From: an uncultured Gammaproteobacteria bacterium | GTDB lineage: Bacteria > Pseudomonadota > Gammaproteobacteria > Pseudomonadales > Pseudohongiellaceae | NCBI GenBank assembly: GCA_913060695.1 | Contig: CAJXUA010000006.1 | Span: 124,001 to 188,000, forward strand | Direction: 5' to 3' | Length of the DNA: 64,000 nucleotides | In this document: positions 490 through 10,484 of the stretch, piece by piece | Layout of the letters: each line of letters opens with the position of its first letter | Position numbering within the stretch: position 1 is the stretch's first letter | Position numbers and translations under genes: made by a program | The notes under the pieces: model-generated | Database searches by the model: none | The model's input: the letters and a program-made list of their open reading frames with translations, nothing else | Told to the model about the DNA's origin: nothing

Positions 490-1908
490 ATGCAACTTTT
501 TACAACACGATCTATAAGGCAGTTGACGATTCTAGGCTTCGTTGCTGTTGCAGCTTTGCTGATCTCGGCACTAGTAGTTACGGCGCGTCAGCTCGATAGT
601 CTAAGCGAGCAGAGCCAAGTCACTGTTGCCGCAGCGGCCAATGCCATGAGCGCGAGCCGACAGCTAATAGAGCAGAGTATTGCGATGGAGCGCAATGCTC
701 GTCAGTTTGCAGTGCTAGGGGAGGAGACATTACGCCAGCTATATCGAGATCGCCGCGCTGAATTTTTAGCGCTGATGACGCAGATAGAGGCGCTAGATGT
801 CGGAACAGAGGCCTTGCAGACCACTCAGGAAATGCGCGCTCGCGAAGCCACTATCTACGCGAGCTTAGACTCCGCAACAGCAACGCGCGCCAACAATTTG
901 GAGATACCCGAATTAGCCAATCATGCTTATCGAATCGCGGATGCTATCGGACAGTGGATCGACCAGCAGCAAACCGAACTCTTAGCGCGCAGTGAGCAAA
1001 CCAAACAGACCCTAACTTTTCAAGCACTCCTGTTCATCGGTGCCGCGGCCGCATTGGCGGTGCTATTCGTGTGGTTGATCACGAGGCCACTGCAGCAGAT
1101 AAATCGTGCTATTAACAATATTGGCAGTGGCGCCTACGATCAACATATTAAGATCGCCGGGCCGCAGGATCTGCAGGCATTGGGCAAGCGGCTGGATTGG
1201 CTGCGTGGGCGCCTGCAAGAGCTTGAACAGCATCGAAGCTCTTTCTTGCGCCACGTATCTCACGAGCTGAAAACTCCACTAGCCTCTATGCAAGAAGGCG
1301 CCGCGCTACTAAACGAGGGTTTGGTCGGCTCTCTTAGCGATCAGCAGCGCGAGATTAGTCAGATAATTGCTAACAACTGCGCGCGCTTGCAGAACCTAAT
1401 CGAGGACTTATTGCGGCATAACTCGCAGAACTTCGAAGTGCTCGACATCATGCCTAAGGCATTACGCTTCGATGAGCTCGTCCTTGGAGTTGTAGAGGCG
1501 CATCAACTTGCCATCAGCAATGGCAAAGTGCAAATACGCAATAACCTGGAAAAATGTGTAGTCACTGCAGACCCGGAGCGCCTTCGTGTCATCGTCGATA
1601 ATTTGTTTACCAATGCGCTGAAGTTTTCGCCAAGTGGTGGCGAGATTGAGCTGCGCCTGTTTAATACAAAGACTAACGCCGTGTTTGAGATTCAGGATCA
1701 AGGTCCTGGGGTAAGCGAGAGCGACAAAGAGAAGATCTTCGATGCTTTCTTTCAAGGCGTGCAGCAATCCTCTAAGCCCTATAGTGGCAGTGGCCTAGGC
1801 TTGGCAATAGCGAGAGATTACGCGATCGCAGGCGGCGGCGAGCTTACCCTAGTAAACGCGACATCGGGCGCTTGTTTCCGCTTGAATTTTCCCCTTGTGC
1901 CAGCATAG
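490..1908 (+). CDS. glrK: Sensor histidine kinase, GlrK/QseE-like
   Basis: Two TM segments, HAMP-like region, SFLRHVSHELKTPLASMQEG H-box, N/G boxes (DNLFTNALKFSPSGG, GSGLGLAIARDY); operon with QseG-like lipoprotein and GlrR-like regulator. ORF is open from 439; start at 490 (MQLFTTRSIRQL) judged likelier. Confidence 0.85.
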   Translation: MQLFTTRSIRQLTILGFVAVAALLISALVVTARQLDSLSEQSQVTVAAAANAMSASRQLIEQSIAMERNARQFAVLGEETLRQLYRDRRAEFLALMTQIEALDVGTEALQTTQEMRAREATIYASLDSATATRANNLEIPELANHAYRIADAIGQWIDQQQTELLARSEQTKQTLTFQALLFIGAAAALAVLFVWLITRPLQQINRAINNIGSGAYDQHIKIAGPQDLQALGKRLDWLRGRLQELEQHRSSFLRHVSHELKTPLASMQEGAALLNEGLVGSLSDQQREISQIIANNCARLQNLIEDLLRHNSQNFEVLDIMPKALRFDELVLGVVEAHQLAISNGKVQIRNNLEKCVVTADPERLRVIVDNLFTNALKFSPSGGEIELRLFNTKTNAVFEIQDQGPGVSESDKEKIFDAFFQGVQQSSKPYSGSGLGLAIARDYAIAGGGELTLVNATSGACFRLNFPLVPA

Positions 1909-1956: not shown

Positions 1957-2451
1957 GTGAACAGTATCAAGTTATGGATGTTGGGAGTTGGCCTTTTAGG
2001 GCTTTGCGCTTGTACAACTAGCCCATTGCTTATGGGGCGGCCGCAGGGTGCGGCGCCACTAGATTTCTATCAATGGGTGCTCGAGGCGACGCCGCAAGAG
2101 CGCTCAGCGCTGCAGCAAAGTATTGAGCAGCAATTGGAGCAGACCTGCGGGCTGCAAGCTATAGTGCAACTCGCAATTCTTAAGAGTGCGGTTGTGACAA
2201 GTGCGCAAGAGGATGAGAGCGCAATTGCGACCCTAAAAGAGATGGACTCCTGTCCTGCGGCAAGTGCGGATACGGGAGACTATCGCGTCTTCGCGACTTT
2301 GTGGACGCAGCAGCTAGCACAGCGTCAAACGCTAAGGCTCAATGGCCGGCAGATTCAAGCCCTAGAAGAGCAGCGCCGCGCACTGCGTGAGCAGATCGAT
2401 GCCCTTACGAACATTGAAGAGCAACTCAATCGCCGTGAGGCAGACTTGTAA
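1957..2451 (+). CDS. qseG: QseG/YfhG-like outer-membrane lipoprotein
   Basis: Lipobox LGLCAC after hydrophobic leader, coiled-coil C-terminus, lies between glrK and glrR; GTG start with AAAGGAG upstream (ORF open from 1933). Confidence 0.65.
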   Translation: MNSIKLWMLGVGLLGLCACTTSPLLMGRPQGAAPLDFYQWVLEATPQERSALQQSIEQQLEQTCGLQAIVQLAILKSAVVTSAQEDESAIATLKEMDSCPAASADTGDYRVFATLWTQQLAQRQTLRLNGRQIQALEEQRRALREQIDALTNIEEQLNRREADL

Positions 2452-2495: not shown

Positions 2496-3857
2496 ATGGC
2501 TATAAAGAATCGAATACTCTTGATCGATGATGATGCAGATCTACTGCACTTGATCGGCGTGCGACTTAAGGCGAATAGCTTCGAGGTGCTCGCATTAGAC
2601 AGTGCAGAGAAGGCTCTTACACAGCTTTCTATTTTCCGTCCCCACGTCGTGGTGACGGATTTGCGGATGCCGGGTATGGATGGCATGGAGCTTTTCGAAC
2701 GCATTCAAGAGCGTGACCTGCGCCTACCGGTGATAATGCTGACTGCTCATGGCACCATCCCCGAGGCGGTTGCCGCTACTCAGAAAGGAGTGTTCAGCTA
2801 TCTAGTCAAGCCCTTCGATGCTCAGCTATTACTCGCTCATATCGAGAAGGCCTTAGTACAGACTGGCGCTCGTGAGACGAACGAGGAGCCGGGGCAGGAT
2901 GACGCATGGCGAGCGCAGATCATCAGCTGTAGCCAAGTGATGGAAAACCTCTTGCAGCAAACTAAGGCGGCTGCGATTACAGACGTGAGTGTCTTGATCC
3001 AGAGCGAGACAGGAACCGGAAAAGAGATCTTAGCCGACGCCATTCATAAGGCCAGCGCGCGCAATGCCAAGCCATTCATGGCACTTAATTGCGCTGCGCT
3101 ACCGGAGGCCTTGCTCGAGTCTGAATTGTTCGGGCATGTCGCGGGCTCCTTCACAGGCGCGAGTAAGGCCCACACCGGCCTGTTTCTAGCCGCCAACGAA
3201 GGCACGGTGTTCCTCGACGAGATTGGCGACATGCCTTTATCCGCGCAGGCGAAATTACTGCGTGTCTTGGAGCAGAGAGAGGTACGCCCGGTAGGGTCTA
3301 CCAAGTCCTCTCCTGTGAACGTAAGAATCATAGCGGCCACACACCAAGATCTCACCGAAAAAGTGGCACAGGGCACGTTCAGGGAGGATCTGTTCTATAG
3401 GTTAAACGTGATTACTCTCGAGCTTCCACCGCTGGCGCAGCGCCGCGATGACATCGCACTGCTCGCCAAACACTTCTGCAGTATGGTTTCTAAGCGGCAT
3501 GGTAAGGACACCCTGCACTTCTCGCCGGAGGCGATGGAATGTCTGATCGGCGCGCCTTGGCCGGGAAATGTACGGCAGCTGCTCAATATCGTGGAGCAAT
3601 GCGTTGTCCTTACCTCGACTCCCATGATCTCGCGGGCATTGGTCGAGCGGGCGCTGCGGTTTAAGTCGAACCGCTTGCTAGGCCTTAATGAGGCGAAGGA
3701 TCAGTTTGAGCGAGAATATCTGCTCAGATTGCTGAATATGACAGAAGGCAATATCGCCTTGGCAGCCCGTCTATCGGAGCGAAATCGTAGCGAGTTCTAC
3801 AATCTATTGAAGCGGCATAGCCTAGATCCTAGCCAGTTTCGTAAAGTGTCTGAGTAG
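2496..3857 (+). CDS. glrR: Sigma-54-dependent response regulator, GlrR/QseF-like
   Basis: Receiver domain (LLIDDDADLL...VVTDLRMPGMDG), AAA+ with ESELFGHVAGSFTGA (GAFTGA-type motif) and FLDEIGDMPLSAQAKLLRVLEQ, C-terminal Fis-like HTH. Confidence 0.92.
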   Translation: MAIKNRILLIDDDADLLHLIGVRLKANSFEVLALDSAEKALTQLSIFRPHVVVTDLRMPGMDGMELFERIQERDLRLPVIMLTAHGTIPEAVAATQKGVFSYLVKPFDAQLLLAHIEKALVQTGARETNEEPGQDDAWRAQIISCSQVMENLLQQTKAAAITDVSVLIQSETGTGKEILADAIHKASARNAKPFMALNCAALPEALLESELFGHVAGSFTGASKAHTGLFLAANEGTVFLDEIGDMPLSAQAKLLRVLEQREVRPVGSTKSSPVNVRIIAATHQDLTEKVAQGTFREDLFYRLNVITLELPPLAQRRDDIALLAKHFCSMVSKRHGKDTLHFSPEAMECLIGAPWPGNVRQLLNIVEQCVVLTSTPMISRALVERALRFKSNRLLGLNEAKDQFEREYLLRLLNMTEGNIALAARLSERNRSEFYNLLKRHSLDPSQFRKVSE

Positions 3858-3872
3858 GGCCCGAATCAGCCC

Positions 3873-3890
3873 TGTCGTGTAAACCCAACA
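3873..3890. promoter_or_regulatory. Candidate GlrR upstream activating site A (TGTC-N10-AACA)
   Basis: TGTCGTGTAAACCCAACA, 63 bp upstream of site B. Confidence 0.5.
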
Positions 3891-3935
3891 CCTAATTCTC
3901 TTAATATCAATAACTTAGCCTAAAGCCTCGTATTG

Positions 3936-3953
3936 TGTTGCTCTTGCCCAACA
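3936..3953. promoter_or_regulatory. Candidate GlrR upstream activating site B (TGTT-N10-AACA)
   Basis: TGTTGCTCTTGCCCAACA within inverted repeat TGTGTTG-N8-CAACACA (3934-3955). Confidence 0.5.
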
Positions 3954-4017
3954 CATGAGGCCTCACCTTGCTTTGTGAAAAATCCTAAGGCATTGATATT
4001 TATCGTAAATATCATAT

Positions 4018-4033
4018 TGGTACGAAGCTTGCT
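4018..4033 (+). promoter_or_regulatory. Sigma-54 (-24/-12) promoter P1
   Basis: TGGTACGAAGCTTGCT: GG and GC 12 nt apart, one mismatch to TGGCACR-N4-TTGCW; intergenic, directly downstream of glrR. Confidence 0.75.
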
Positions 4034-4099
4034 CTCTATTATTTAACTGACGCTATCGAGGGTTTCGGTAGCAGAAATTCAATATTAGGGAGAATAACA

Positions 4100-4303
4100 A
4101 TGAAGAATGCTCAGCTAGCTAACGCAACAATAGCCTCTTTCGAAATGGGTATTGAGACTTCGGATAACATTCCTCGTCTCCCCATGAGCTCTTCTAATGG
4201 AGGCAAGGCCTCCGAAAGAGAGTTTCTGCTTCACGCCTTTTACAAATTATGTCGCAAGCGCGGACGTCGAAGTGCTCGATGCGCTTTCGCTAAGAAGCGG
4301 TAA
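4100..4303 (+). CDS. 67-aa hypothetical protein with basic Arg/Cys-containing C-terminus
   Basis: AGGGAG ribosome-binding site 7 nt upstream of ATG; lies between sigma-54 promoter P1 and an intrinsic terminator; no family recognised. Confidence 0.5.
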   Translation: MKNAQLANATIASFEMGIETSDNIPRLPMSSSNGGKASEREFLLHAFYKLCRKRGRRSARCAFAKKR

Positions 4304-4421
4304 GAGAGGCATCTCCCGCTAAAGCCAGGTCAATGGACTGACCGCGACATACCCCTTTTGTTACCGCATAGGCATGGCACCCCAGAGCGGATCTTGTGTC
4401 CATAATTCGCTCCGCCTTTTT

Positions 4422-4446
4422 GACCCCGTACTAGGGGTCTTTTTTT
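4422..4446 (+). terminator. Intrinsic terminator of the P1 transcript
   Basis: GACCCC-gtacta-GGGGTC followed by seven T. Confidence 0.85.
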
Positions 4447-4471
4447 GCCTGAAATTCAGCAAATTTTAGTG

Positions 4472-4489
4472 TGTCCCGCTTGCCATACA
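4472..4489. promoter_or_regulatory. Candidate GlrR upstream activating site C (TGTC-N10-TACA)
   Basis: TGTCCCGCTTGCCATACA, 63 bp upstream of site D. Confidence 0.5.
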
Positions 4490-4534
4490 GTGAAGCCCAA
4501 TGAAAACAAAGGCTTATGTAACGCGCGATTTATC

Positions 4535-4552
4535 TGTCGTGGCAACGCAACA
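4535..4552. promoter_or_regulatory. Candidate GlrR upstream activating site D (TGTC-N10-AACA)
   Basis: TGTCGTGGCAACGCAACA, near-copy of site A. Confidence 0.5.
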
Positions 4553-4617
4553 CTCTACTGCTCGCCTGATCTGATGAATAAGTGTAACTAGTTGAAAAAT
4601 GTAGAGTAATAAAGATT

Positions 4618-4633
4618 GGCACAGCCGTTGCAA
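4618..4633 (+). promoter_or_regulatory. Sigma-54 (-24/-12) promoter P2
   Basis: TGGCACAGCCGTTGCA: full match to TGGCACR-N4-TTGCW, upstream of the EF-hand gene. Confidence 0.85.
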
Positions 4634-4682: not shown

Positions 4683-4997
4683 ATGAAAAATACACTAGTA
4701 GCAGTATCAAGCGTTCTTATCGCCATCTCTTCCGCCGCATTTGCGCAGAGCGAGACTCCAAGTTTCACAGAGGTCGATACCAATGCGGACGGCATCTTGA
4801 ATAAACAGGAAGCCGACCAAGCGCTTCCAGCACTAGGCTTGAGCGACTCAAATCAAGACGGCGTCATTAGCAAGGGTGACGTTAAGAAAGTCTTGCCAGA
4901 TATTGAATTCGAAGGCGATGACGAAAGTGCAATCGGTTCTGCCGAGTATCAACAGATTGTACAAGTGATGGAACAGTTGATGGATCGTGCTGGGTAA
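4683..4997 (+). CDS. Exported EF-hand domain protein
   Basis: Signal peptide MKNTLVAVSSVLIAISSAAFA; two EF-hand loops (DTNADGILNKQE, DSNQDGVISKGD); AAGGAG RBS. ORF track start 4662 is too early. Confidence 0.85.
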   Translation: MKNTLVAVSSVLIAISSAAFAQSETPSFTEVDTNADGILNKQEADQALPALGLSDSNQDGVISKGDVKKVLPDIEFEGDDESAIGSAEYQQIVQVMEQLMDRAG

Positions 4998-5051: not shown

Positions 5052-5088
5052 CGGGGCAATCGACAGGGAGTTGATTGCCCCGTTTTTT
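5052..5088 (+). terminator. Intrinsic terminator after EF-hand gene
   Basis: CGGGGCAATC / GATTGCCCCG perfect 10-bp stem followed by TTTTTT. Confidence 0.9.
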
Positions 5089-5162: not shown

Positions 5163-5603
5163 ATGTCTGACCAAGCCGAACGAATGCATGCCCCGCGTAG
5201 TTTTTGGATTATCGCTGGTGTTTCCCTAGTGTGGAACCTAATTGGCGTGATGAACTATCTGTTTACTGTAACAGTGAGCCCAGCGACATTGGCCACTATG
5301 TCGGAGGCCGAACGCAGTTTGTATACCGATGTGCCGGTGTTCGTGACCTCGTGCTTCGCGATCGCTGTGTTTAGCGGTGTCCTCGCATCGGTTCTCTTGC
5401 TCCTTCGTAAAGCCTTGAGCGTAAGTCTGTTTCTAGTGTCGCTTGTTGCGATTATTCTACAAATGAGTTTGGGTATGTTCTTAACTCCGATGTTGACAGC
5501 TCAAGGACCTGCGGCACTCGCCTTGCCTATTCTGTTAATAGTCTGCGCTGCATTTTTCTTCTGGTACTCACGGAAAGTGACAGCGCAGGGGTTGCTGCAC
5601 TAG
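5163..5603 (+). CDS. Small integral membrane protein, four predicted TM segments
   Basis: Hydrophobic segments throughout; AAGGAG RBS; stop codon overlaps that of the convergent TetR gene. Confidence 0.75.
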   Translation: MSDQAERMHAPRSFWIIAGVSLVWNLIGVMNYLFTVTVSPATLATMSEAERSLYTDVPVFVTSCFAIAVFSGVLASVLLLLRKALSVSLFLVSLVAIILQMSLGMFLTPMLTAQGPAALALPILLIVCAAFFFWYSRKVTAQGLLH

Positions 5604-6238
5604 TCACGACGGCGCATGGATTCGGTCAGCATCGCAATCGTGTACAGAACCAACGCCTCGCCATCTTCAGCCTCGCGGTCTTCACTGTAGCGTGTGCGTG
5701 TGGCCATGATCACGCCATGCAACGCCCCTTGCAGGAAGTAAGCTGTCTGCAAACTGTCAGTTAGATGATCTGCATTTAGAGAGCCATCTTGTACGCCATT
5801 TTCTAAGGCCAGCACCATGGTGGCGGTTATGCGTTCTTTACAATCGAAAATCTCTTCGGCCTGCGAGTTGTCCGCTTTGCTATCTGGGAATGTATTGAGC
5901 TGCGTTAGCACGTTGAAATAATTCGTCTGTTCTTTAGAGAATGCATAGTAGGCATGGCCAATGCCATCTATCTGCTGCCCACCATTCGCGCCGGCTCGCA
6001 GAGCTCGATTGAAATATTCTTCTAGTGTGATTGCAGCCCTCAGCATGATGCCGCGCATGATGTCCGCCTTGTCCTTAAAATAGACATAGAGCAGTGCACG
6101 GCTTAACTGTGCTCGTTTAGCGATCTCCTCCATAGAGCTTTTGGCGAAGCCTTTGCTGAAAAATATGGACTCTGCAGCATCCAGAATTGCTTCTCGTCGA
6201 ATTTGCTTCTCTTTGTCTCTTCTTGCAGAGATTTCCAT
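5600..6238 (-). CDS. TetR/AcrR family transcriptional regulator
   Basis: N-terminal HTH (ILDAAESIFFSKGFAKSSMEEIAKRAQLSRALLYVYFKDKADI). Confidence 0.9.
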   Translation of the reverse strand: MEISARRDKEKQIRREAILDAAESIFFSKGFAKSSMEEIAKRAQLSRALLYVYFKDKADIMRGIMLRAAITLEEYFNRALRAGANGGQQIDGIGHAYYAFSKEQTNYFNVLTQLNTFPDSKADNSQAEEIFDCKERITATMVLALENGVQDGSLNADHLTDSLQTAYFLQGALHGVIMATRTRYSEDREAEDGEALVLYTIAMLTESMRRRD

Positions 6239-6285
6239 CTATTCGCTTCCTATCGGTCAATGAGTTCTGTGCACCTCTAAACGTA

Positions 6286-6317
6286 TTGACATAATGTCAA
6301 TTGCTGACACAATGTCA
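6286..6317. promoter_or_regulatory. Tandem palindromic operator, probable TetR binding region
   Basis: Perfect palindrome TTGACATAATGTCAA (6286-6300) and TGACA-caa-TGTCA (6305-6317) in the tetR/RND divergent intergenic region. Confidence 0.7.
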
Positions 6318-6339
6318 ATATATTGTTAAGGAGTTAGTC

Positions 6340-7431
6340 ATGTCGAACCCAATTTCCCGTCACGCTCGTGCCGCCATTGCTGCTCTTTTGCCTATATTCC
6401 TGTCGGCTTGTACGGATTCTAGCAGCACCCCTGCCCCAGATGAATCGGCGCTACCTAGCCAAGCGGTAACGGTGCGTACTACTACTGTACAAGGGGAGCA
6501 AGGCGAGCAATGGCTGTATTTCGCAGGTGTGGCACGCGCGCGCGAGCGGGCCAATTTGAGTTTTCAGGTCGGTGGCATCATTGCGAAGCGCAGTGCCCAG
6601 ATCGGCCAAGTGGTGAAGGCAAACGAAGTACTCGCCACACTCTACAATCCACAGCTGGGGCCCGCCGAACAAGGCGCACAGGCGCGCTTGCTACAGTTGC
6701 AGGCCGACGTTGAGCAGTCCGAACGGGACTTAACTCGACTCACGCAATTATCCGAGCGTGGCTTGCTCGCCGATCAGCGTCTGGAACAACAGCGCAGCCT
6801 GATCGCTGGGCAACGCGCCGCAATCGAAAGCGCCAGCGCCGCACTCGACCAATCGCGCCAGCTTAACCAAGAGAGCGCATTGCGTGCGCCCTTCGCAGGA
6901 CGAGTCGAATCAGTCCTGTTGGAGGCGGGCGAGTATGCTCAACCCGGGCAGGTCGTACTGCAGATGACCGGTGCCGGCGAAACAGAGGTGGAAGTAAGCG
7001 TGCCGCCCCATCTGCTCACTGCCCTTGAGATCGGTCAAAGCGTTCCAGTGCGGCATAGCTTGAGCGACCGAGAGAGCGTCGGGGTGATTACCGAAACCGG
7101 TGAGGCTAGCTCTGGTACTAAAGCGCTCTATCCCCTCGTTGTGCGCCTGAGCGATCCCACTGTGCGTGGTGGCGAGGCCTTAGAGGTCGGCATACTAAGA
7201 GCCGCAGAGCATTCGCTAAGCGTGCCACTGAATGCAGTTATGCGCTCGGCTGTGGGTCTCACGGTATTTCGTATAGAGGGAAACCGGGCTAGGCGCGTCG
7301 CAGTCGAGATCGATCAGGTATTTGGGCAGCAAGCCGTGTTGAAAGGCGACACGCTGAGCCTAGGCGATCAAATCGTTTACGCGGGTCTATCGCGACTCGC
7401 CGATGGCGACATCGTGGCAGTATTGCCATGA
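6340..7431 (+). CDS. RND efflux periplasmic adaptor (membrane fusion) subunit, lipoprotein
   Basis: Lipobox LSACT; biotinyl-lipoyl-like and coiled-coil hairpin regions; ATG at 6340 with AAGGAG upstream. Confidence 0.9.
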   Translation: MSNPISRHARAAIAALLPIFLSACTDSSSTPAPDESALPSQAVTVRTTTVQGEQGEQWLYFAGVARARERANLSFQVGGIIAKRSAQIGQVVKANEVLATLYNPQLGPAEQGAQARLLQLQADVEQSERDLTRLTQLSERGLLADQRLEQQRSLIAGQRAAIESASAALDQSRQLNQESALRAPFAGRVESVLLEAGEYAQPGQVVLQMTGAGETEVEVSVPPHLLTALEIGQSVPVRHSLSDRESVGVITETGEASSGTKALYPLVVRLSDPTVRGGEALEVGILRAAEHSLSVPLNAVMRSAVGLTVFRIEGNRARRVAVEIDQVFGQQAVLKGDTLSLGDQIVYAGLSRLADGDIVAVLP

Positions 7432-10400
7432 ACGGTGCGAATGTTTTTCTCAAGATAGTGGCACTGCCACGCCTAGTCTTATTGGTCGTCATAATGTTAG
7501 CTCTAGCGGGACTTGCTTCCTACGGCTCTATGGCGCGGCAGGAAGACCCCTTCTTCCCGGCACGAACAGGTCTGATTACCATTCTCTATCCTGGAGCGCC
7601 GGCGGAGACTATGGAGCGCCTCGTACTCGAGCCTCTTCAAGACGAAATTTCCCAGGTCGAAGAAGTATTAGAGTTCTCCGCCACAGCACGAACAGGCGTA
7701 GCTCTAGTAACGGTAGGATTGCTGGACTCTATCTATGACACCGACGCTGCATGGGATCGCGTGCGTATCGCCATGAACCGTGCGCGCACGGAGTTTCCCG
7801 ATGGCGTCCAAGACCTGACCCTGGAAGACCGTTTGACGGGCCTTCCAGCGGTTGTCTTAGCCGTGGCAGGAGACTCCTCTATAGTTACCTTGAGCCAGGC
7901 AGCGGAGCAGCTCAAGCGGCAACTGATGAACTTGCCTGGCGTCTCTAGAATCGAGCTAGAGGGCGACAGCAAGGAGCAAATAAATATAGCGCTACGCGAC
8001 GCAGAGATGGCAAGGCTCGGTATCAGCCCCGGCGCACTCGCGAATCTGATTGGTCAACGCAACCAGGTAGCGCCAGGTGGCTTTCTAGTAGTAGGTGACA
8101 CGCGGGTCAATCTACTTAGCAATAACGAATTCACGAGCATCGACTCATTGCGTAACACGCAGATACCCATACCCAGTGGTGGCAGCGTGCCCCTCTCTGC
8201 AATTGCACAAGTTTGGCGTTCCGCCACAGAGCCTCCGGCCCCTAGCACATGGCAAGACGGCGAGCAGGTTGTAGCGCTCGGTATTTATGCACAGAACAAT
8301 CAAGTCGATGCGATCGCTTTCGGTGAGAATGTCCGTGAGCGTGTTGCACAGATAAAAGAAGACTTCGCGCCCTTAACTATTCAAGAGATGTTCTACCAAC
8401 CAGAACAGGTCGACAAGCGCTTGAGCGATCTACAAGGTAATCTTCTCGTTAGCATGGGGATCATCACCTTGATCCTGTTCTATGGTATGGGTTGGCGCAT
8501 GGGGATCCTGGTGGCGAGTATGCTGCCGCTAGTCACGTTGATTAGCCTCGGCGTCTACGACTTCGCAGGAGGTGTCCTTCATCAGATCGCCGTCATTGGT
8601 CTAGTCATATCCCTGGGTATCTTGATCGACAATGCCATCGTGATGGTAGAGAACATTCAGCATAGGCTCAATGATGGAGAGACTCGGGCAGACGCCCTGC
8701 GTTCAGCCGTCGTGGAGTTAGCTGGGCCACTCGGCGCCTCAACTGCTACTACGTTGGCGGCGTTCACACCACTACTACTCTCCAAGGGAGGCACAGCAGA
8801 CTTCACTCGGGGTATTCCAGTAATGATTATGCTGACCCTTAGCATCAGCTATTTGTTGGCGGTTAGTATCGCGCCATTGCTAGCGGCGCGCTTTCTGAAG
8901 CCGAATGCCTCCACTCGCACTGAGTGGATCGAAACACTTGGCAATAGCCTAGCAAGATTTAGTCGCCGTTTTCCGAAATCTATAGTGCTGGGAGGCTTAT
9001 CGCTACCGGTGTTGAGTTTTCTTTTAGTGCCTCTGTTGAGTTTTCAATTTTTCCCCAACGCAGATAGGCCGCAGGTAGTAATTGAGATGTTCTTGCCAGA
9101 GGGCACCGATATCTCGCGAACCAATACCATGGCAGAGACTCTCGAACGAGAGCTGCGCGCGCGCGATGGTGTCGTCAGCATTCACCGCTTCGTCGGCGAC
9201 ACAGGGCCGGGCTTCTATTACAACCTTCCCCTCGCCTCGCAGTCGCCCAACCGTGCCAGACTGGTGGTTAATACTCAGAGATTGGAACAGACCGCTGGCA
9301 TTATCGAGTGGGTGCGGGAGCGCGCAGCGTCGAACTATCCCGAGTTGGAAATTGTTGCGGGAACCCTCGCACAGGGGCCGCCTCGTGTCGCGCCAGTCGA
9401 GGTCCGGGTCTATCACAGTAATGACGAGTCTCGACTCCTTGCTGCAGAGAAATTATTCGCTCTATTAAAGGGAATCCCCGGTGCAGTAGACGTGCGCACA
9501 GATATCGACAATGGCACCCCGGTGCTGCGCATTGTAGTCGATGACGCGAGCGCGCAGCGCTATGGATTAGGCCGCGTGGACATCGCACAAACGCTATTCG
9601 CACGCAGCCTTGGCCTACCCATTGAGCAATACAGACAAGAGTTAGACCCGGTCCCTATAGTACTGCGATCCAACGAAGGTACTCGCTTAAGTGTGTCAGA
9701 GGTCATGTCGAGCTATATATTTAATCAGGCCAATGAGCCCATTCCAATAAGCCTGATCGGCCGCACAGAGGCGGATTGGAATGTGGCGAGTATCCACCAC
9801 CGCAATGGCGTGCGCGTGTTGACGATCACTAGTGGCTTAGCGGAAGGCTATAGCTTCAGCAATATCGTCGATGAACTCAATGAAGGCTTGCTCTCCGATC
9901 CCTTTCCGGATGGCACCCGCATCGAGTATGGCGGAGACCTCGAGAGTTCGGATGAGGCGAATCAAGCGATATTCGCAGTAGCCCCTATTGGCATACTCTT
10001 GTTGTTGTTCTTCCTGCTTTTACAGTTCAACTCATACAAGCGTGTGGGTATCGTATTATTGACGGTTCCGCTTGCGGCTGCGGGCATCTTCCCTGGCTTG
10101 ATACTTAGTGACTCTCCATTTGGTTTTCAGCCGCTACTGGGTGTCATCGCGTTAGTTGGTATCGTGGTAAACAATGCGATAGTCCTGATCGACTATATCG
10201 ATCAGCAATTGCGTGCTGGTGGAGACCTTGCTAGCGCAGTCGATGACGCGGTAGCGCGACGTACGCGACCCATTTTGTTGACGACGGCCACGACAGTCAC
10301 CGGCTTATTGCCATTGGCCCTTTCTTCCTCGACACTATGGCCTCCGATGGCTTGGGCCATTATTTCGGGACTGATAGCGTCGACGATGTTAACGCTATTG

Positions 10401-10484
10401 GTAGTCCCTGCGGTTTGCCGACTGAGCTTAGGGCCACGTAAGCCGAAAGCAACTAGATTGAAGTCTGCATTAGATGTGAATTAA
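7428..10484 (+). CDS. RND efflux inner-membrane transporter
   Basis: 1018 aa, AcrB/HAE1-type architecture (GILIDNAIVMVENI, GIVVNNAIVLIDYI); overlaps adaptor stop by 4 nt. Confidence 0.95.
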   Translation: MNGANVFLKIVALPRLVLLVVIMLALAGLASYGSMARQEDPFFPARTGLITILYPGAPAETMERLVLEPLQDEISQVEEVLEFSATARTGVALVTVGLLDSIYDTDAAWDRVRIAMNRARTEFPDGVQDLTLEDRLTGLPAVVLAVAGDSSIVTLSQAAEQLKRQLMNLPGVSRIELEGDSKEQINIALRDAEMARLGISPGALANLIGQRNQVAPGGFLVVGDTRVNLLSNNEFTSIDSLRNTQIPIPSGGSVPLSAIAQVWRSATEPPAPSTWQDGEQVVALGIYAQNNQVDAIAFGENVRERVAQIKEDFAPLTIQEMFYQPEQVDKRLSDLQGNLLVSMGIITLILFYGMGWRMGILVASMLPLVTLISLGVYDFAGGVLHQIAVIGLVISLGILIDNAIVMVENIQHRLNDGETRADALRSAVVELAGPLGASTATTLAAFTPLLLSKGGTADFTRGIPVMIMLTLSISYLLAVSIAPLLAARFLKPNASTRTEWIETLGNSLARFSRRFPKSIVLGGLSLPVLSFLLVPLLSFQFFPNADRPQVVIEMFLPEGTDISRTNTMAETLERELRARDGVVSIHRFVGDTGPGFYYNLPLASQSPNRARLVVNTQRLEQTAGIIEWVRERAASNYPELEIVAGTLAQGPPRVAPVEVRVYHSNDESRLLAAEKLFALLKGIPGAVDVRTDIDNGTPVLRIVVDDASAQRYGLGRVDIAQTLFARSLGLPIEQYRQELDPVPIVLRSNEGTRLSVSEVMSSYIFNQANEPIPISLIGRTEADWNVASIHHRNGVRVLTITSGLAEGYSFSNIVDELNEGLLSDPFPDGTRIEYGGDLESSDEANQAIFAVAPIGILLLLFFLLLQFNSYKRVGIVLLTVPLAAAGIFPGLILSDSPFGFQPLLGVIALVGIVVNNAIVLIDYIDQQLRAGGDLASAVDDAVARRTRPILLTTATTVTGLLPLALSSSTLWPPMAWAIISGLIASTMLTLLVVPAVCRLSLGPRKPKATRLKSALDVN

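Follow-up and report, generated by a model that had tools for sequence, protein, structure and literature searches.

The window, a stretch of 64,000 nucleotides from a gammaproteobacterium of the family Pseudohongiellaceae, begins with an operon of three genes, for a GlrK-like kinase, a lipoprotein in the place of QseG, and a GlrR-like regulator:

490..1908, plus strand: glrK-like sensor histidine kinase; HAMP, HisKA and HATPase_c domains
1957..2451, plus strand: small lipoprotein in the qseG position, between kinase and regulator; lipobox LCAC read in the translation
2496..3857, plus strand: GlrR-like sigma-54 activator; receiver, AAA+ and HTH domains

Over its full length, the kinase shares 31% identity with E. 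coli GlrK (E=1e-61). No similarity to E. coli QseG could be detected for the lipoprotein in the middle, and Pfam and NCBIfam searches with it gave zero matches. A preliminary description of this DNA had assigned the regulator to the GlrR/QseF family of sigma-54 activators, and the assignment is supported by several results. Its top NCBIfam match is GlrR (NF011695, E=8.5e-171), with a wide lead over other families, its identity with E. coli GlrR is 53%, and the recognition helices of the two are nearly identical (RNRSEFYNLLKRH in the window, RNRTEFYKLLSRH in E. coli). The domains are also those of E. coli GlrR, namely, a receiver with its Asp, a sigma-54 AAA+ domain and a C-terminal HTH. The GAFTGA loop reads GSFTGA, which keeps the F and the T; in a relative (L099) it reads GAYTGA. 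The score of 568.6 bits is below the curated equivalog cut-off of NF011695 (763 bits), which counts against the GlrR reading, and the protein is therefore named GlrR-like here, without full membership by that measure. The genome also has genes for RpoN and for four proteins of the HU/IHF family.

Directly downstream of glrR lie two predicted short transcription units. Each has enhancers and a promoter, then a ribosome-binding site before a single small gene, and a terminator at the end. The enhancers, promoter and associated IHF-like sites of each unit are called a module below.

3873..3890, plus strand: module 1 enhancer UAS1, TGTCGTGTAAACCCAACA; candidate TGT-N12-ACA site, recurs in relatives
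3905..3917, plus strand: module 1 IHF-like site, TATCAATAACTTA; perfect match to WATCAANNNNTTR, +32 from UAS1
3936..3953, plus strand: module 1 enhancer UAS2, TGTTGCTCTTGCCCAACA; candidate TGT-N12-ACA site, recurs in relatives
3986..3998, minus strand: module 1 IHF-like site, TAAGGCATTGATA; perfect match, reverse orientation, 32 bp upstream of TGG
4018..4032, plus strand: module 1 predicted -24/-12 promoter, TGGTACGAAGCTTGC; one mismatch to consensus
4100..4303, plus strand: gene of a 67-aa protein, predicted target of module 1; kept behind this module in six members of the genus
4422..4447, plus strand: intrinsic terminator closing unit 1, from a terminator scan
4472..4489, plus strand: module 2 enhancer UAS1, TGTCCCGCTTGCCATACA; candidate TGT-N12-ACA site
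4504..4516, plus strand: module 2 IHF-like site, AAACAAAGGCTTA; one mismatch
4535..4552, plus strand: module 2 enhancer UAS2, TGTCGTGGCAACGCAACA; candidate TGT-N12-ACA site
4585..4597, minus strand: module 2 IHF-like site, TAACTAGTTGAAA; one mismatch
4617..4631, plus strand: module 2 predicted -24/-12 promoter, TGGCACAGCCGTTGC; perfect consensus
4683..4997, plus strand: gene of a 104-aa exported EF-hand protein, predicted target of module 2; signal-like N-terminus, EF loops; other genus members have orthologues behind this module
5052..5088, plus strand: hairpin with T-run, probable terminator of unit 2, read by eye (a simple scan missed it because its loop exceeds 8 nt)

In E. coli, QseF (GlrR), helped by IHF, binds three TGTN12ACA sites upstream of glmY (PMC6075780), and the glmY gene of P. 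mirabilis has three QseF sites together with two for IHF (PMC8745638). Here too, multiple TGTN12ACA sites lie upstream of a predicted sigma-54 promoter. All four sites were found where the preliminary description had placed them (3873, 3936, 4472 and 4535), both of its -24/-12 promoters are present (4018-4032 and 4617-4631), and the 63-bp spacing that it gave for the two pairs is exact. Its promoter distances of 83 and 84 bp were right in being nearly equal, but the 1-bp difference disappears: once the second GG is placed correctly, at 4618-4619 instead of 4619-4620, UAS2 is 82 bp from the T of TGG in both modules. Every element of module 2 is found at the module 1 position plus 599 bp. The right half-sites, which had been described as degenerated, are not so, since TGT-N12-ACA is itself the published QseF/GlrR consensus (PMC6075780). 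Measured on the MG1655 sequence, UAS2 and UAS3 of E. coli glmY are also exactly 63 bp apart; this spacing is thus already a property of the best-studied GlrR promoter.

Two IHF-like sites per module, at fixed positions and in opposite orientations, were missing from the earlier account, as were the identities of the target genes. Among 23 related modules, which include close relatives so that the counts are not all independent, the inter-enhancer site is present in 14 (1.1 expected from dinucleotide shuffles) and the promoter-proximal site in 17 (1.7 expected). As at glmY, then, putative IHF sites lie upstream of the promoter, as sequence matches enriched over shuffles. Both sites of module 2 have one mismatch, which we count against reading the two units as GlrR-dependent.

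Single TGT-N12-ACA matches are at the chance level in the window (13 observed, 9.1 expected) and were left out as evidence for that reason. In the whole 3.73-Mb genome there are just two pairs with the exact 63-bp spacing, both of them here, vs about 0.2 expected. The composite pattern, site-N45-site-N64-promoter with <=3 mismatches, also has only these two matches in the genome, and its reversed control has none in 36 genomes. A search of the genome for further modules of strict geometry found none; GlrR targets with other spacing remain possible. Outside the motifs, modules 1 and 2 are 37% identical (shuffled mean 26%, 95th percentile 34%). The geometry is thus far better conserved than the sequence, in agreement with the earlier view that spacing is kept between otherwise dissimilar intergenic regions. 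The cassette had been called duplicated; duplication is likely, but an old one, because two modules are found also in genus members whose GlrR is about 82% identical.

The preliminary description had named loss of the sites or their spacing from orthologous loci as evidence against function. Instead, the site pair recurs behind glrR in the same genus and family, with 62-64 bp between sites and usually 81-84 bp to the promoter. The enhancer stretch of one relative, G012, is only about 65% identical to that of the window, and the sites persist; module 1 is kept there, and module 2 and its EF-hand gene are both absent. Some genus members have three tandem modules downstream of glrR (L112, L107). 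The predicted targets of these three encode the 67-aa protein, an EF-hand protein and a small lipoprotein, and CsbD-like, DUF1328 and DUF883-like genes lie close by.

The module also co-occurs with GlrR. In the family, GlrR is present in every genome that has the strict composite (p=3e-4). In a scan of the class, the module was found in 15 of 369 genomes (reversed control, 0 of 369), and GlrR is present in 12 of the 14 other module-bearing genomes vs 93 of 368 overall (p=2e-6). Two findings count against the GlrR reading: GlrR is absent at E<=1e-115 from two module genomes (G121 and G262), and many GlrR orthologues, for example in enterics and halomonads, have no module just downstream of glrR. 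A phylum-wide scan of 399 genomes with a stricter first site gave a single match, indicating that the module is uncommon in that sample. This match was of the type seen at L129 and L179, where the palindrome TGTCCTGA-N2-TCAGGACA is present in multiple copies upstream of a predicted sigma-54 promoter, at L129 before a gene for a TRAP-type solute-binding protein. These two loci were rejected as GlrR modules: they fit the loose pattern, but their repeats look like those of another activator. The palindrome is probably the site of a different enhancer-binding protein.

In a wider search, with site spacings of 30-120 bp and promoter distances of 50-150 bp allowed, the spacings cluster at 62-67 bp and the distances form a stepped series near 71, 82, 92, 101-102 and 112 bp. 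The promoter distance thus differs between lineages by whole helical turns. With one value per genus (15 lineages) and only loci not selected by pattern, the distances have a period of about 10.5 bp (R=0.66, p ~1e-3), and 13 of 5000 jittered sets were equally good. The distance from UAS3 to the promoter in E. coli, 107 bp, falls outside this series, which again counts against the main reading.

The product of unit 2 is the 104-aa protein, in which the EF loops DTNADGILNKQE and DSNQDGVISKGD can be read directly. Its Pfam EF-hand matches are slightly below cut-off (best E 6e-5); counterparts at L126, L136, L138, L115 and L002 are above it. The gene is under purifying selection, as is that of the 67-aa protein. 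Across the class, the first gene behind the module encodes an EF-hand protein in 5 of 13 GlrR-type modules, L129 being left out because its sites look like another activator's. If the background is taken as about 4 EF-hand genes per 3300, a figure estimated roughly and from a single genome, this gives p ~3e-12, and at a generous 0.5%, p=4e-9. At loci selected by GlrR alone, EF-hand-like ORFs follow glrR in 11 of 72 cases in the sense direction vs 1 of 72 in antisense, and several such ORFs are preceded by a predicted sigma-54 promoter (L002, L012, L153, L155, L167).

Small exported EF-hand proteins thus recur in many lineages behind GlrR-type modules or glrR itself: in the window (4683-4997) and at L105, L106, L112, L115, L002, L126, L134, L135, L136, L138, L153, L155 and L167. 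In the examples read, the two EF loops are only 11-14 residues apart, a spacing known from lanmodulin. The 104-aa protein itself has a weak NCBIfam match to LanM (E=4e-4, 20 bits, cut-off 135). Beside the EF-hand unit, at 5603-10484, the gene of a TetR-family repressor is divergent from an efflux operon of the RND type, with a membrane-fusion protein and a 1018-aa pump.

Other genes behind modules include DUF1328, CsbD-like, small lipoprotein, bactofilin-like and exopolysaccharide-type genes, of which DUF1328 and the acyltransferase domain at L139 are confirmed by Pfam and the rest were named by eye. GlrR-type modules precede bactofilin-looking genes in beta- and gammaproteobacteria (L007, L013, L020 (minus strand, about 9450-9720)), which suggests a link of GlrR to cell shape or envelope scaffolding. 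At L132 and L139, modules precede genes for an exopolysaccharide-type sugar transferase and a PEP-CTERM-associated-like acyltransferase, where an overlap of GlrR and PrsR-type regulation is possible.

Taken as a whole, the locus very probably comprises two GlrR-dependent sigma-54 units directly downstream of glrK-lipoprotein-glrR, the first for a genus-specific 67-aa protein and the second for an exported EF-hand protein. The two modules most likely switch on these two small protein genes. The sites, their geometry and conservation, the co-occurrence with GlrR, the helical phasing and the selection on the small genes are results of the analysis, whereas we infer GlrR binding, IHF action, RpoN dependence and the signal, and thus control by GlrR and sigma-54, from sequence. 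The mechanism would be as follows. In response to an envelope signal, GlrK would phosphorylate GlrR, and GlrR~P dimers would bind UAS1 and UAS2, six helical turns apart and so on the same DNA face. With the DNA bent by IHF between the two sites, the two dimers would meet and assemble the AAA+ ring in its active form. IHF would bend the DNA again between UAS2 and the promoter and so bring the ring onto sigma-54 RNA polymerase, which ATP hydrolysis would then open.

Three other explanations have to be weighed. The recurrence of the geometry might be a coincidence in AT-rich intergenic DNA, as the chance level of single sites in the window would allow. The comparative data already contradict this: the composite is kept across species in which the surrounding DNA has diverged, it occurs in the genome only at the two modules, and its reversal is found nowhere in either control. 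We give this explanation practically no weight. Alternatively, the modules might be real sigma-54 enhancers bound by a different NtrC-family activator encoded elsewhere, the adjacency to glrR being incidental. The genome has many NtrC-family proteins (48 first-look candidates), similar palindromes serve other activators, as in the TGTCCTGA-type arrays of L129 and L179 beside a TRAP-type gene, and two module genomes are without GlrR at the threshold used. But the module is directly behind glrR in most module-bearing relatives, its co-occurrence with GlrR is far above background, the sites have the exact published GlrR consensus with the 63-bp spacing of E. coli glmY, and the recognition helix matches that of E. 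coli GlrR. Together these make a different activator quite improbable.

The remaining explanation concerns unit 1, whose product could be a small regulatory RNA, a counterpart of GlmY, and not the 67-aa protein. The known enteric GlrR targets at such promoters are sRNAs (PMC6075780). Unit 1 is a predicted short transcript of about 400 nt with a terminator at its end, and its 5' end, between the promoter and the start codon, shares 95% identity with the G012 sequence. However, the ORF is preceded by a Shine-Dalgarno sequence, is kept in six species and is under purifying selection (dN/dS about 0.02-0.12), and no Rfam model, of GlmY, GlmZ or another known RNA, has a match in the window at the gathering threshold. 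An sRNA in place of the protein is thus unlikely; unit 1 may be a dual-function RNA. The 67-aa protein has the motif G(V/I)E..D..PRLP and belongs to no family in Pfam or NCBIfam. A search of 245 other genomes of the order did not find it, and among the genomes searched it is confined to one genus. A weak second match of its model in the genome (L170) was dismissed as chance since it has stops and neither site pair nor promoter.

Two GlrR-dependent protein units remain the preferred reading, and the EF-hand link is the most interesting part of the finding. In the literature searched, with subscription journals mostly outside its coverage, we found no link between GlrR and EF-hand proteins; the module targets, among them the exported EF-hand protein that recurs, apparently have no earlier description. 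Outside enterics, the core conserved output of GlrK-GlrR could be a small exported EF-hand (metal-binding) protein expressed via the module, with GlmY a lineage-specific replacement; we advance this tentatively, as a serious possibility. If true, GlrKR would be an envelope response linked to metals or calcium, which could help to identify its signal. The sequence grammar of the module, two sites 63 bp apart with IHF between them and a promoter at whole helical turns, would mark GlrR targets in genomes without a known regulon, and the module indicates small exported EF-hand proteins as recurrent targets. The spacings that occur in nature already offer a test of the phasing of enhancer dimers and IHF needed for activation of sigma-54 polymerase.

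The closest known system is glmY of E. coli and other Enterobacteriaceae. Like the modules, it has TGTN12ACA enhancers that include a pair spaced by exactly 63 bp, IHF-like sites both between enhancers and close to the promoter, a TGGCAC-N5-TGC promoter, and a position adjoining the operon of kinase, lipoprotein and regulator (glrK-qseG-glrR in E. coli). The differences are also clear. E. coli has three enhancers vs two per promoter here, which we count against the main reading, and the last enhancer is 107 bp from the promoter vs 82 bp. Here the IHF-like sites have the orientations opposite to those at glmY, and the modules are downstream of glrR, in two copies, before protein genes instead of the GlmY sRNA. 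Unlike glmY, no overlapping sigma-70 promoter was found on the plus strand of the modules. The P2 promoter of E. coli rpoE, another QseF/GlrR target, is likewise a GlrR-dependent sigma-54 promoter with similar upstream sites (PMC6075780), but it is a single distant target and controls a sigma factor. The periplasmic EF-hand protein CaBP of Caulobacter vibrioides resembles the product of unit 2 in being small, exported and part of an envelope-stress circuit, but its gene is linked to the ECF factor SigV and not to GlrR/sigma-54 (PMC13171946). The enhancer-promoter kind is thus already known from E. coli; what is new is the form with two enhancers and two IHF-like sites, its duplication, and its protein targets.
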